Assembly: GCA_003054695.1 (NCBI GenBank)
Contig: QAZA01000017.1
Coordinates: forward strand, 124,001 to 188,000
Source of the DNA: Verrucomicrobia bacterium LW23
Lineage (GTDB): Bacteria > Verrucomicrobiota > Verrucomicrobiia > Methylacidiphilales > UBA1321
Reading direction: 5' to 3'
Length of the DNA: 64,000 bases
The notes beneath the pieces were generated by a model, which was not told where the DNA came from, ran no database searches, and was given only the letters and a program-made list of their open reading frames with translations. Shown piece after piece: positions 1,850 to 39,574 of the stretch. How positions within the stretch are numbered: the stretch's first letter is position 1; every line of letters begins with the position of its first letter. Made by a program: the position numbers and the translations under genes.

Positions 1850-4800
1850 ATGGAACGGCGCGCTTTTCACTCGATTTTGCTTCTTCTGGCGGTGCAGCTT
1901 GCGCTGTCTCTCTCCTGTGCACGGGGAGAAAATGTCTCCGTGCCCGTGCCGGTGCAGTTGGGAATAGAAACAGAACAGTCGGCTTCCGCCCCGGCCACCG
2001 CTCCTCGCGGACCGCATGCTGTTATCAGACTTTCCGGACAGGCTGCTCCCCTCATGCTTCCTGTGGAGGCTGAGACGACGTTGCTGAACAAGAGCGACAA
2101 GGCTCCCAAAGACGCGGCCGTTCTGCAGCTCCGCGATAATCGCTTTCACCAGGTTCTCATCAAACTCAATCTCGATGCATTGCCCGGCGACGCACGGATC
2201 GAGTCCGCGGAGCTTCGCCTGCACGCCGGCTGGAAGGAGCGCACCGGCACGGCAAAGATCGAGCTTAACCGCATGCTCAGCGAGTGGGCCCCCGCCGCCA
2301 CGTGGCAGAAGCCCGATGCGGCCCAGAGCCGGGAGTGGAACGGCATGCAGAAGGGCGCGGATTACGAAAGCGACCCGTTTGCCTCATGGGAGACGGACGA
2401 CTTCAAAACCGGGTGGATCACCATCCCCGGCCTGGAGAGGCAGATTGCCGCGTGGAAGTCGGGCAGCGAGGAGAACTACGGATTTGCCCTCCAGCTATTT
2501 GGCCGCGTCACGCAGATCAATGTGACAGGAAGCGCCTATGTGGCGCCCAGGTCCGAGGTCAGAGAAGTGAAACTGGAGCCGGGCGTGCCCGTTCGGCTGA
2601 TCGTGCAGGTGGATCCCGCGGTGATTCGGCGCCTTGTCCTGGACAAGGCAGATATCCAGGATGCCGGGCTTCTGTTCCATAAAGTCAGCAGGGAAGGCTC
2701 GCTGGAAAACCTCAGGGTAACGCTCCCGCAAATCCCCGGCGCCGTAGCAGCGCGCGTTGAGGATCGCCTCTCCATCAAGGGCCTGGGATCTGTCCTCAAA
2801 ACCGCCCTGGAGACAGAGGGAAGAGACAGCAGCCCGGTACGCATGGAGATGGAGCTGGTGGCGACCGAAAAGCTGGTCCTCTCCGGCCCAAACTATAAGG
2901 AGAAGCCAAAGCGTGCCGGATTTGCCGTGGACATCACAAAACATCCCTCGGCGGCGCTGTTTGAGAGTCCGGTGAAGATTCGTCCCGGCGTCTACACGAC
3001 GTCCCGCAACGGCCACCTGTATTACGGCAACGAGCGCCTGCGCATCTGGGGATCGCTTGGCTATGGCAACATCGAGCGCATCAAGAACATGGGCTTTAAC
3101 GGCTGGCGGCTGTGGCCTGTCCTGAGCAAATCCTATGGGGACGCCAGCGTTACCACCGGCGAGTTTGCCCCCAGCACCAAAGGCGACGGAGGCGAGCTGG
3201 ACAAGATGGACGCCATGTTTGCTGAGCTGAAGTCGCGCGACATATTTGTGATGGCCACGCAGCTGATGGGTATCATGCCCCTGGATCTGCTGACAAAAGA
3301 CGGCTCATTCGTCTCTGGCGGCGCGGACTGGGAGGAGTGGCGCAAGGCGGTCCGCCAGAAAGGTGTGAACTGGCAGCGGTGCGGCTTTGTAGACGAGCGC
3401 CTGCTGGCCGCGCGCAAGCAGCACATCAGGAATGTGCTCACCCACGTCAATCCCTACACCGGCCGGCGCTATGCGGAGGAGGAAGGTGTCGCCATCTGGG
3501 AGATCGACAACGAAATCGGCTTTGTAAAGCGCATGCTGGACGGCGAGTACGAAGGCTGGCCCGAGTACTTCCGCAACAAGCTGCAGGCCCGCTGGAACGC
3601 CTGGCTGTTGAAGCGCTACGAGACTCCGGCGGCCATCCGTACCGCCTGGGGTACGCTTGGCGAGGGCGAGACGGATGGCGCTATTCTGCCGGGGCCAAGC
3701 CTCAGGCACGACAAAAAGTACCCCCAGGCCCGTGGTCGCGATTTCGTGCGCTTTATCATCGAGCTGGCAGATGCGCACTATCAGGAGCTCCGCGCGTTTG
3801 CCCGGACTCACGCGCCCGCCGGGGTGGGCGTGGCCGTGGCGCCGTTCAGTTTCGATACGCAGTACCGCCCCAGTCTGCCGTGGCTGTACTCGCAGAGTCG
3901 CAGCGACGTGGCCAATTTTGGCATGTACTTCTGGGGGCTCAACAGCGCTCTCACCTCACCGCCGTCCGCGTATGTCATGGACAGCAGCACCGTGGAGGGC
4001 AAACCCACCATCATCTACGAGACCAACCAGGGCCGGCCCAGCCCGTTCCGCGCGGAGTACCCCTACAAGCTCGCGGCGCTCGCCTCGTGGCAGGACTGGG
4101 ACGCAATCTTTTTCCACTACTGGGGCGCCTGGGATATGAACACTAACGAGGAGTTTCTGACCGCCACGATGCCCCACGTTACGGTGGATCACTTCTGGAA
4201 TGGCGTGCATCATCACTCGGACCCCGTGATGACCTCCGCCATGGCGGTTGCGGGACGCATGTTTCTGAGCCAGAGCATCCGGCCCGCCGCCAAGCCGGTG
4301 ATCTACAAAGCCGGCTCTCAGGCCATCTTCAGCTATGACTTTGTGAATGGGCTCTCCATGGGCAAGGACGCTTTTGCGCACGGCGCCAGGATCCGCTTCG
4401 AGCCGGCGGCCGATGCCCGACTGGACATGGAGAACGCCCGGCAGGAGGAAGCACCCTCTCCGACCAGCGTGAAGGCGGGCGATGAACTGACATGGGACTG
4501 GCAGAACGGACGGCTCATCATCGACGCACCTCGCGCCAAGGCATTCGTCGGGCCTGTGCCCGCGCAGGGCTTTGCATTCAAGGACGGCATCACGCTCAGT
4601 GGTCTCAGCACACCATGGATTTCCTTCGGGCTGGCCGCGGAGGGCAACGAGGACAAGCCGCTGACGGAAGCCTTCAGATCGTATGTCAGCGCCGTGTTCG
4701 ATGCACGCAACACCGGCTACGTCTTCGACTGGACCGTTGAGGGCGGCCCTGTGGATCAGGCGAAAGCAACGAAGAATCGCGGCACCGCACCCGCCCTTGT

Positions 4801-10300: not shown

Positions 10301-11013
10301 AGCCGTTTTCGACAGCAGGCAAGATCAACCTGAACTATCAGATCGCGCCGTTCTCCTACCTGCGCCGCGACACGGGTCTGCGCGCCGTCTTTAAATCCGT
10401 AATGCTTACCGCGCTAAACCCAATGGATACCGCGAGTTCCGCAGGCAGCAAAGCCCTGGCCAAGCTGCATAAGAAAGGGCTGTACGGCGACGGGCTGACC
10501 TCCTTTTACGGCGGCGCTGCGGATATCGTGATTCGCCACCCCTTGCAGCCCGGCGCAACACTGCAGTTCTTTGAGGACCGCTTCAGCCGCAACAAGCCGT
10601 TTATCTCCGCATCGGAAATCTGCACCGTGCCGCTTGTCCCGCGAAGCGCTGGTGCGTCGGACACGGACACCGTTTCCACGCTGGAGACGCGCCTCGCCGC
10701 CTTTTGGCAGAATCGTGTGAAACTGACGGGCGATAACTCCATCGAGCTGCCCTATAACTCCATCTATCCCCGCGTGACGACGCGGTCCAACACCTATCAG
10801 GTGCACGTGCGGGCCCAGCAGGTCAAAATGCAGCACGTTGCCAACGACACGTTCCGCCTGGGATCGGGCCGGCAGGAGGCCGAGTTCCGTGGGTCATTCG
10901 TGATCGAGCGCTATCTGGATCCTACGTCGCAGACTTTCAACGACACGGATGCGTCGGCGATCCTTGGCCCCTACAAACTGCGCGTTATCTCCACGCGGCA
11001 GCTGAGCTATTGA
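7330..11013 (+). CDS. Verru_Chthon cassette protein A, giant GspK-like pseudopilin
   Basis: ATG 7330 is preferred because it gives a short basic leader (MNSPVYRRRTRG) directly before a hydrophobic helix (AAIVIVLACLVLMTTLLLAM); the open frame begins at 7222 and overlaps gene C, which is less likely. The product is 1227 residues. The N-terminus resembles GspK/PilX proteins, which lack Glu5, and residues ~210-230 hold a KVNINTAS element like the one seen in GspK. Bacterial GspK is about 300 residues, so this is roughly fourfold larger, with many beta-rich regions and no recognised catalytic domain. It probably caps the pseudopilus and may contact substrate or surface (inference). Confidence 0.78.
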   Translation: MNSPVYRRRTRGAAIVIVLACLVLMTTLLLAMLATLKSDAQSSSLYASGVSSRSLADSALNLVMGEIREASSQANTAWISQPGLLRTFDTRGNAVKAYKLYSSSQMVVTGEYDPASVTGTDYPRAEWLTLPQVFADMNEPVRTADGFTIYPIVSPDAVTEVEGFSSSSSDLNFSMPVRWLYVLKDGTLAAAEPGSSSDEVRIPGAGKDNPPYGRIAFWTDDESTKVNINTASEGTFSEIPVACTYKSGFREKTGPPAGYTPNPNEVVYEVDLAYYQPAQREYQRYPGHPASTSLSTVLWNPLARALGTTDRKQILEAICSLTPRYNGGANSSMGGTARPPLSGVLTGSARRFYASIDELLFTAPFSGSERTQSNIDRSERRRKTLDEVKFFLTANSNSPEQTLFNTPRVAIWPISSDPAKRTGFDSLIQFCSSVRGSDSTPRMYCLQRSNPHSPTMDWNLGRNRDIYAYLQKLTGRPIPGFTTDTFAGKYPGAERDQILTSIFDFIRTTNLVDVSSGTDANVYTQKNARESGLVVPLDPGNGTKGFGRYITLSELALASVAVKRNGAAPSYNYNLQFAIIPEFFNVTPGHPQMASHFRLEFSGLKSFRFGTQDLFANDTHTMKLDEFQAPSQAFARAEPFVRMGGHLGYRSLVTWDKLTDAGGNASTGMFPVGKVNNVAPAAGLTISGTVTLQLYYDPPSGAPVLVQRGTFTFPSTPFQVPTTTIETTNEPTGFLCNADVDYSRMQPNSLVQTNDWIRSLTPKKAFNSDYRLIAAVPATENLGAYFEKHPLWDLPDRLVHSLRPPIISPSQASTSPKKPTPGSRIGKLTDVATFDFITEWPDIVANDLAVANDKGVLNSLGKSGDWQNGPGLIPDGCYIGKVDEGEAPAKSGRADSAIPYLGHMYITDGSAAMEEQAGTYFSPSRLMASPVVFGSIPTGVKRGLPWQTLLFRPARAYLPGASDHPGGVNPPDHLLLDLFWMPVVEPYAISEPFSTAGKINLNYQIAPFSYLRRDTGLRAVFKSVMLTALNPMDTASSAGSKALAKLHKKGLYGDGLTSFYGGAADIVIRHPLQPGATLQFFEDRFSRNKPFISASEICTVPLVPRSAGASDTDTVSTLETRLAAFWQNRVKLTGDNSIELPYNSIYPRVTTRSNTYQVHVRAQQVKMQHVANDTFRLGSGRQEAEFRGSFVIERYLDPTSQTFNDTDASAILGPYKLRVISTRQLSY

Positions 11014-15231: not shown

Positions 15232-15567
15232 TTCTGCACTCTGACAACAAGCTCTCGTGCACAGGAATAGAATATTCTTGATATTGATGCGACGAAATTG
15301 ATTTATGAACCGCTGGGGCCGCGTCTGACCGAGCGTGAAGAACCGAGGGGAGGCCGAGGCCGTCGATACATTAACGCCAAGGCCGGAAAGATCGCCAAGG
15401 GGAGGGACCGCGGAACGTGCAAATGTCGACAGCCGCCAGATAGAGCGGTTTCAATACGCGTGTAACCTCACCCAGGGCTTACGCCCTGGGCTTTAGGCTT
15501 TCGCGCCTGTGGCGCTTCCGATGGTGTCATGTCTATACTCGTATTGAAAACCGATCCAGAATTAGCG
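15232..15567. other. 336-base gap between two minus-strand genes
   Basis: No coding region is supported here. The segment holds the small MITE-like palindromic element at 15446-15553 described separately. The rest (15232-15445) should hold the promoter of the glycosidase gene, with an AT-rich stretch around 15265-15305, but I cannot place convincing -35 and -10 boxes. Confidence 0.5.
15446..15553. repeat. Small MITE-like element with terminal inverted repeats
   Basis: The ends are inverted copies: CGGTTTCAATACGCGTGTA at 15446-15464 and the complement of CGGTTTTCAATACGAGTATA at 15534-15553, differing by one indel and two mismatches. Inside is a perfect 8-bp hairpin, CCCAGGGC (15471-15478), TTAC, GCCCTGGG (15483-15490). 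There is no open reading frame. The CCCAGGG/CCCTGGG core is shared with the larger element at 32.9-33.2 kb, so both probably belong to one family of REP- or MITE-type repeats. It ends 15 bases past the stop of the hybrid kinase. Confidence 0.6.
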
Positions 15568-38507: not shown

Positions 38508-38672
38508 TTCTAGGTGTGCATGGGGAGGTCGGCGTAAGCCGGCGACTCCAGACGCAAAGCGGCTTCCCGTCCCGCCGCGTCAAAGTCGTTTCCCATACAA
38601 GGTGAAAGACTTGCCGTTCCCCATAGTTGTCACTCACCGTGCGAAGCGGCGTGATATCACCAGACATCCCCC

Positions 38673-38885
38673 ATGCCATCCGGCGGGATTCAGCCCAAAG
38701 AGTTCTACCTTCATGAAGTATCTGAATCGACCTTAATGAAGCGAATAAGCTACGGAGCGGCCCACGATGCTTCATTGCTCAAATACAACGTGTCGCCGTA
38801 TAGTGTATATGCACCTGAAGTAATTCAGGCAAATCCTGGAAATTTCAATGAGAATTGGCGTAATTTCTGGGGGTTTGGACAATGA
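38673..38885 (+). CDS. Small unknown protein, possibly a remnant
   Basis: 70 residues from ATG 38673; the frame is closed 21 bases upstream, so it is not longer without a frameshift. The sequence is aromatic- and Asn-rich at the end (NENWRNFWGFGQ), with no family I recognise; it reads like the C-terminal end of a larger protein. From about 38700 the DNA becomes AT-rich compared with its surroundings. Its TGA overlaps the ATG of the next gene (ATGA, 38882-38885), as in coupled gene pairs. It could be a decayed accessory gene. Confidence 0.4.
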   Translation: MPSGGIQPKEFYLHEVSESTLMKRISYGAAHDASLLKYNVSPYSVYAPEVIQANPGNFNENWRNFWGFGQ

Positions 38886-39298
38886 TGAAGCACATTAAGC
38901 TTCCAAAATTCGCTGAAGCTCGCGTTTGGACAAATGAACTGCCTGGGTATGCAATGATGAAAGGCAAAGTGTCGCCCATGCTTCAAAAACCTGCTTCGGT
39001 TGAAATTGCACCGCGCGATGGTGCGATAGAGTGGCTCGTTCCGGTTGGTTCGCGCAGTCTTTATGGTTTGCTAGGAGCAACAGTGCGTTATTGTGAAACT
39101 CGACTGCGGGTCGAAATCGTGAACGAAACTCCTAACCGTCCAGCTTCGGAAGCTATCGCGTCCCGTATTTCCGATGCACCGCTTGTCGGCCTGCAAGCCG
39201 ATTACATAGCGGCGGTGAAGCGGGGGTTGAAGCAGCGATTACTGAGCGCAACACCTTGCCTGCATGCCGTGTCAGGAGGTGTAGCGGCACTCAAATGA
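38882..39298 (+). CDS. Unknown protein coupled to the preceding gene
   Basis: 138 residues, soluble, starting MMKHIKLPKFAEARVW; no motif that I recognise. The core (IEWLVPVGSRSLYGLLGATV) looks like a folded alpha/beta domain. Overlap with the upstream small gene and the AT-rich codon choice, unlike the GC-rich neighbours, point to acquisition as a pair. Such two-gene units beside tRNA sequences are often accessory (toxin/antidote or element cargo), but nothing here proves that. Confidence 0.45.
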   Translation: MMKHIKLPKFAEARVWTNELPGYAMMKGKVSPMLQKPASVEIAPRDGAIEWLVPVGSRSLYGLLGATVRYCETRLRVEIVNETPNRPASEAIASRISDAPLVGLQADYIAAVKRGLKQRLLSATPCLHAVSGGVAALK

Positions 39299-39365
39299 CG
39301 AAAGGATGCACGTGTTGTAGATACGCGATACATCGACATTTCGTTATATTGCCTGACAGCTTTGC

Positions 39366-39423
39366 CCGGGTTCGAATCCCGCCCCGCCGATTTCTTCCGG
39401 CGGGTAGCTCAACTGGTTAGAGC
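39366..39423 (+). other. tRNA halves in permuted order (3-prime half before 5-prime half)
   Basis: 39366-39390 is a tRNA 3-prime end: T stem CCGGG, loop TTCGAAT, stem CCCGC (one C-C mismatch at the outer pair), acceptor strand CCCGCCG and discriminator A. After 7 bases (TTTCTTC), 39398-39423 is a tRNA 5-prime end: acceptor strand CGGCGGG, TA, and a canonical D arm GCTC AACTGGTTA GAGC. The two acceptor strands pair perfectly (7/7). No anticodon arm joins them on either side, and no CCA is encoded. It may be a circularly permuted gene, or the ends of two truncated tandem tRNA genes. Confidence 0.6.
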
Positions 39424-39499
39424 GGGAAAAGTTCGTTTCACAAATCCTTGTTGCCGACAGATATCGGAGGCGCGCCCGTCCGGCAGCCGCAGTCTGGGC

Positions 39500-39574
39500 G
39501 CCTCGGTAGCTCAATTATGGAGCAGCTGACTTTAAATCAGCGGGTTACAGGCTCGAGTCCTGTCCGGGGCACCA
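39500..39574 (+). tRNA. tRNA with anticodon TTA (ochre-decoding, Lys-like body)
   Basis: A complete cloverleaf with encoded CCA. Acceptor GCCTCGG pairs with CCGGGGC (one G-U); T8 A9; D stem GCTC/GAGC with loop AATTATG; anticodon stem GCTGA/TCAGC with loop CTTTAAA, putting TTA at positions 34-36; variable loop GGGTT; T stem ACAGG/CCTGT with loop CTCGAGT; discriminator A. The anticodon pairs with the stop codon UAA. A tRNA-Lys loop CTTTTAA changed at position 36 gives exactly CTTTAAA, as in known ochre suppressors. The D loop lacks the usual GG, and T54 is C, so it may be degraded or functional but unusual. Confidence 0.75.

Follow-up and report, generated by a model that had tools for sequence, protein, structure and literature searches.

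How does a bacterial genome come to carry the 3' half of a tRNA-like structure ahead of its 5' half? The question is raised by positions 39366-39423 of the window, that is, of the whole stretch of 64,000 nucleotides from Verrucomicrobia bacterium LW23 that was analysed. Here a T arm and an acceptor strand stand before a second acceptor strand and a D arm, in the following arrangement:

39367-39381, + strand: T arm of the tRNA-like module of a Y RNA and presumed crossover region, with stem and loop CGGG TTCGAAT CCCG (sequence, fold, YrlA alignment); C39366 and C39382, at the fifth position of the T stem, do not pair
39383-39404, + strand: acceptor-like stem CCCGCCG - ATTTCTTC - CGGCGGG, made of the acceptor 3' strand (39383-39389), an 8-nt loop (39390-39397; alternatively a discriminator-like A plus 7 nt) and the acceptor 5' strand (39398-39404) (sequence, fold, a similar Y RNA on contig C25 of the same genome)
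39405-39423, + strand: TA (39405-39406) and the D arm GCTC-AACTGGTTA-GAGC (39407-39423) of the tRNA-like module (sequence, YrlA alignment)

A preliminary description of this DNA had placed a T arm and CCCGCCG before CGGCGGG and a canonical D arm, had paired the acceptor strands at all seven positions and had seen no anticodon arm in the flanks. All three statements are borne out by reading of the sequence and by a computed fold, in which the 7-bp acceptor hairpin with its 8-nt loop, the T arm and the D arm all form. ARAGORN and the Rfam tRNA model make no call at 39366-39423, and the sole tRNA called in the window lies downstream, at 39500-39574.

The segment belongs to a broken bacterial Y RNA of the YrlA type, of which it forms the permuted tRNA-like module. 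In YrlA the two ends of the RNA form a basal stem, and a tRNA-like domain resembles the D, T and acceptor arms of tRNA (PMC8394870; PMC7790460). The succession of T arm, loop-closed acceptor stem and D arm is the normal module order of YrlA and is seen also in the Y RNAs of this genome itself; the RNA ends exit at the position of a would-be anticodon arm and pair into the stem bound by Ro60 (Rsr). An anticodon arm is therefore not expected in the flanks, which are parts of the Ro60-binding stem. When 388 genomes from across the phylum were searched for 5' halves like this one, three further matches came up in two of them (G305 and G360), and all three are Y RNAs. Both loci are arrays with a gene for a Ro60-like protein on one side and one for RtcB on the other; a conserved stem recurs in alternation with the T arms, looped acceptor stems and D arms, and Rfam calls the units as YrlA.

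The Rfam model of YrlA, RF02553, aligns end to end with 39341-39460 at 34.0 bits (E 7.6e-6 locally, 3.2e-5 genome-wide), a score below its gathering cut-off of 69 bits. Copies in the array of the same genome also fall under this cut-off, at 27-44 bits, and 23.6 bits are attained by chance by two tRNAs that stand in tandem at another place in the genome. Since such a pair comes to 23.6 bits and the window score is under the cut-off, the covariance model alone is not decisive, and it is the 3' flank that separates a Y RNA from the rival readings:

39433-39460, + strand: 3' strand of the Ro60-binding stem, CGTTTCACAAATCCTTGTTGCCGACAG, directly 3' of the D arm (profile E 0.0003)

When the Ro60-stem 3' strands of 15 further Y RNAs are made into a profile, with the window excluded, this strand is its top match across the 64 kb; the runner-up has an E-value of 0.12. 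From the acceptor strand through to the Ro60 strand, 81% identity over 57 nt is shared with a Y RNA in the G305 array, with an alignment score of 62 as against 26 for the best of 300 shuffles. Furthermore, a Y RNA on C25 has the hairpin CCCGCTG - ACCAAT - CGGCGGG at the equivalent place, nearly that of the window. The locus thus shares with YrlA the module order, a 3' strand with the conserved motif and a Ro60 encoded in the same genome. A 5' strand of the Ro60-binding stem that pairs with the 3' strand is absent, so that the copy is a remnant and not an intact member of the family.

The phage sequence that comes closest is a module without annotation in phage Atuin (E 5e-4), in the neighbourhood of a gene labelled 'Ro-like RNA binding protein', and phage Sparky gives a weaker match with a neighbour labelled in the same way. 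Judged from the end-to-end match with RF02553 and from the presence of the same module in phages with Ro genes, the pattern at 39366-39423 is not due to chance. As a separate observation, Y RNA-like modules stand unannotated in the phage records of Atuin (L128, ~1494-1552), Sparky (L129, ~1493-1557) and EFDG1 (L130, ~1478-1578 and 2907-3014).

The machinery that accompanies Y RNAs is encoded elsewhere in the genome. On contig C25, RtcR, Ro60, tRNA genes, a YrlA array, RtcB and RtcA occupy one locus. RtcR has a Pfam match of 1.6e-80, Ro60 matches Pfam vWA_Ro60 at 3.8e-19 and has Rsr (PDB 2nvo, 1.2e-24) as its nearest solved structure, and the matches of RtcB and RtcA are 1.4e-100 and 5.5e-69. 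Arrays of about 4-7 YrlA RNAs between Ro60 and RtcB were observed in G305 (L090), in G360 (L089) and on C25 (L100, 5100-6610), the last of which additionally holds several divergent tRNA genes. Among the relatives, none of 39 has a TROVE/Ro60 match and 29 searched for YrlA give weak scores only, none convincing, so that the Y RNA/Ro60 system is patchy here. An equivalent module is absent from 59 relatives, and an empty site was not seen in any relative.

Left of the T arm, two further features come into play:

39268-39382, + strand: right end of an integrative element (attR arm and T-arm core), from homology to the ends on contigs C11 and C8
38882-39298, + strand: ORF of 138 aa from the ORF list, with no Pfam or NCBIfam match

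The first of these matches C11:282638-282754, the end of an element integrated in tRNA-Thr(CGT), with 79% identity over 117 nt, and C8:6917-7030 with 75% identity over 114 nt; the similarity to both of these element ends ceases in the T arm, as is looked for in an attR. On C11, a repeated tRNA half, the 3' half of tRNA-Thr(CGT), comes after the element end, and the intact tRNA-Thr(CGT) lies 17 kb upstream of that end with a tyrosine integrase gene directly behind it; this is an integrative element with attL and attR. The target that adjoins the C8 copy is identifiable neither as a tRNA nor as a Y RNA. A further copy, on C26, in which a right end, a tmRNA-like 3' end with its T arm, and an integrase are joined, resembles attP; its core matches the 3' end of the genome's own tmRNA (GGTTCRACTCCCGCCGCCTCCAC). 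The attP-like junction on this 12-kb contig is at L123, ~10500-10900, and its integrase is damaged by an in-frame TAG. Among public relatives of the integrase, all in Verrucomicrobia-related genomes, four of four loci start just behind a tmRNA 3' end (L124-L127, ~1550-2000).

Since this element family uses the T arms of tRNA-like genes, the window is read as its attR joined to a Y RNA, and the element-end match, taken with the sister integrations in tRNA-Thr(CGT) and tmRNA, therefore points to a broken Y RNA carrying attR. The integration is inferred from one end, because neither an attL nor an integrase was found upstream in the window or in contig C17 from position 90000. The stretch from the end of a GYF-domain gene (38486) to 39268 contains nothing but an 'orphan' coding tail at ~38658-38885 and the 138-aa ORF, which begins about where the tail ends and is probably a gene that remains from the integrated element.

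That the left part truly is an element end, and that identical tandem tRNAs do occur in the genome (three tRNA-Gly on C3), would also suit two identical tandem tRNA genes, truncated on the left by an element and on the right by decay so that a 3' half and then a 5' half were left. Of this idea, which the preliminary description had raised, the involvement of an element stands, the left half being attR, and the tandem tRNAs fall away. What follows the D arm is the 3' strand of the Ro60 stem and not an anticodon arm. An intact tRNA with CGGCGGG/CCCGCCG acceptor strands, for which a search had been proposed, is found neither in the genome nor in 59 relatives with up to 3 mismatches allowed, and the exact degenerate 5'-half pattern has no match in the GTDB genome collection or in the viral collection. 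Such an origin is quite unlikely.

If the locus is a Y RNA carrying attR, it may be asked whether the RNA still works, the element end having given it a new 5' part while the module was kept and Ro60 binding was possibly altered. The intact T arm, acceptor hairpin and D arm would speak for this, as would a short extra junction stem in the fold, CUUU.CCC/GGG.AAAAG. However, the Ro60 stem is unable to form: the RF02553 alignment of the window copy has mismatches across both outer helices, and no pairing candidate for the 5' strand of the Ro60 stem was found in C17 90000-188000. The fold is moreover no better than that of shuffled sequences (z -0.45), whereas an intact Y RNA of the same genome has z -3.5. 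A working Y RNA at this site is thus very unlikely. Two 8-nt complements at 39093 and 39183 were considered as the 5' strand of the Ro60 stem and rejected, as they stand in the wrong order.

Scarcely credible is a circularly permuted tRNA gene in working order, with a precursor made into a circle and then cut in the manner of some algae and archaea: the permuted order noticed earlier is real and the 7-bp acceptor pairing is perfect, but the RNA is a YrlA module and not a circularised or spliced tRNA, its 3' flank being a Ro60-stem strand of a Y RNA, neither flank has an anticodon arm in sequence or fold, the T stem is mismatched at its base and derives from the element end, no homologous permuted tRNA was found elsewhere and bacteria are not known to have a tRNA-splicing endonuclease of the archaeal or eukaryotic kind. 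A permuted tmRNA (RF04321) was likewise rejected, with no tmRNA match at the site; the tmRNA of the genome is an ordinary one-piece gene at C1:37013-37376. The tempting claim of a permuted bacterial tRNA gene is thereby removed, and such a pattern signals a Y RNA.

Beyond the Y RNA remnant, on the same strand, follows the one tRNA gene of the window:

39500-39574, + strand: gene derived from tRNA-Lys(CUU), with anticodon UUA, outside the Y RNA (ARAGORN; Lys-CTT genes of relatives)

All of its stems pair, its anticodon would read the stop codon UAA, its D loop lacks GG and a C stands at T54; the genome yielded no further Lys-CTT gene. Either the gene has decayed or it encodes a suppressor-like tRNA. 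Stop reassignment by a tRNA reading UAA was considered and left no clear sign, TAA ending only 9 of the 38 long ORFs of the window. The surroundings of tRNA-Lys in three genomes of the same family have no neighbours in common with the window. Clusters of divergent, foreign-looking tRNAs were observed at C10:373111-374000 (Leu, Leu, Arg, Trp) and at C56:270347-270563 (His, Asn), and an Acido-Lenti-1 RNA (RF01687) lies at 15471-15516 of the window, above the curated cut-off.

In conclusion, the locus is very probably the remnant of a YrlA-type Y RNA, into whose module T arm an integrative element recombined before losing attL and its own left part. The ancestral gene would have been a YrlA-type Y RNA in which the permuted module was functional, and its uninterrupted form would have been a YrlA whose 5' strand was of the kind CTGTCGGCAA...TGTGAAAC...T arm. 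Judging from the homology of the ends, the element would have recombined into the T arm of the module as its relatives do in the T arms of tRNA-Thr and tmRNA. All sequence 5' of the T arm would have been replaced, the 5' strand of the Ro60 stem included, and deletion or rearrangement would subsequently have removed attL and the element's left portion.

It is a general rule of insertion into tRNA and tmRNA genes that the element brings a replacement for the 3' end of the gene (PMC10111431), and the gene survives because of this substitute. In a Y RNA, an insertion should break the gene and inactivate it, because, with the permuted order, the displaced part takes with it half of the Ro60 stem as well as the D arm and the loop of the acceptor stem. 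That the tRNA-like module of Y RNAs is a genuine site for T-arm-targeting integrases which otherwise use tmRNA or tRNA, and that insertion there destroys the Ro60-binding RNA, is an evenly balanced proposition, and it is put modestly because it stands on a single, decayed case that lacks one end. In the literature searched, no account of Y RNAs serving as integration sites was found; YrlA has been reported inside a prophage, and horizontal transfer of yrlA was deemed probable (PMC8190616, PMC9569102). The case suggests that tRNA mimicry may expose Y RNAs to elements that home to tRNA-like genes, and such targeting could help to account for the patchiness of YrlA and for its presence on mobile DNA. 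The Y RNA itself belongs to a known family; the notable point is that its tRNA-like module was apparently used as an integration site.

Three known systems may be set beside this locus. With YrlA (RF02553) it has in common the permuted tRNA-like module, the 3' strand of the Ro60 stem downstream and a genome with Ro60, RtcB, RtcA and RtcR, but the window copy is without the 5' strand of the Ro60 stem, and it is single, distant from the Ro60/RtcB locus and beside a gene derived from tRNA-Lys. As in the permuted tRNA genes of algae and archaea, a 3' half precedes a 5' half and the acceptor strands pair; unlike in those genes, neither an anticodon arm nor a splicing context is present, and the RNA is of another family. 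The integration-site classes for tRNA and tmRNA genes go back to Williams (2002), as cited in PMC8190616 and PMC10111431. The elements that target such genes resemble the present one in the crossover in the T arm, in the attR fragment at the far end and, in the sister copies, in the integrase beside attL. The difference is that the target here is a Y RNA, and that the target is not simply restorable, since the tRNA-like module and the Ro60 stem each lose one half to the displaced part.
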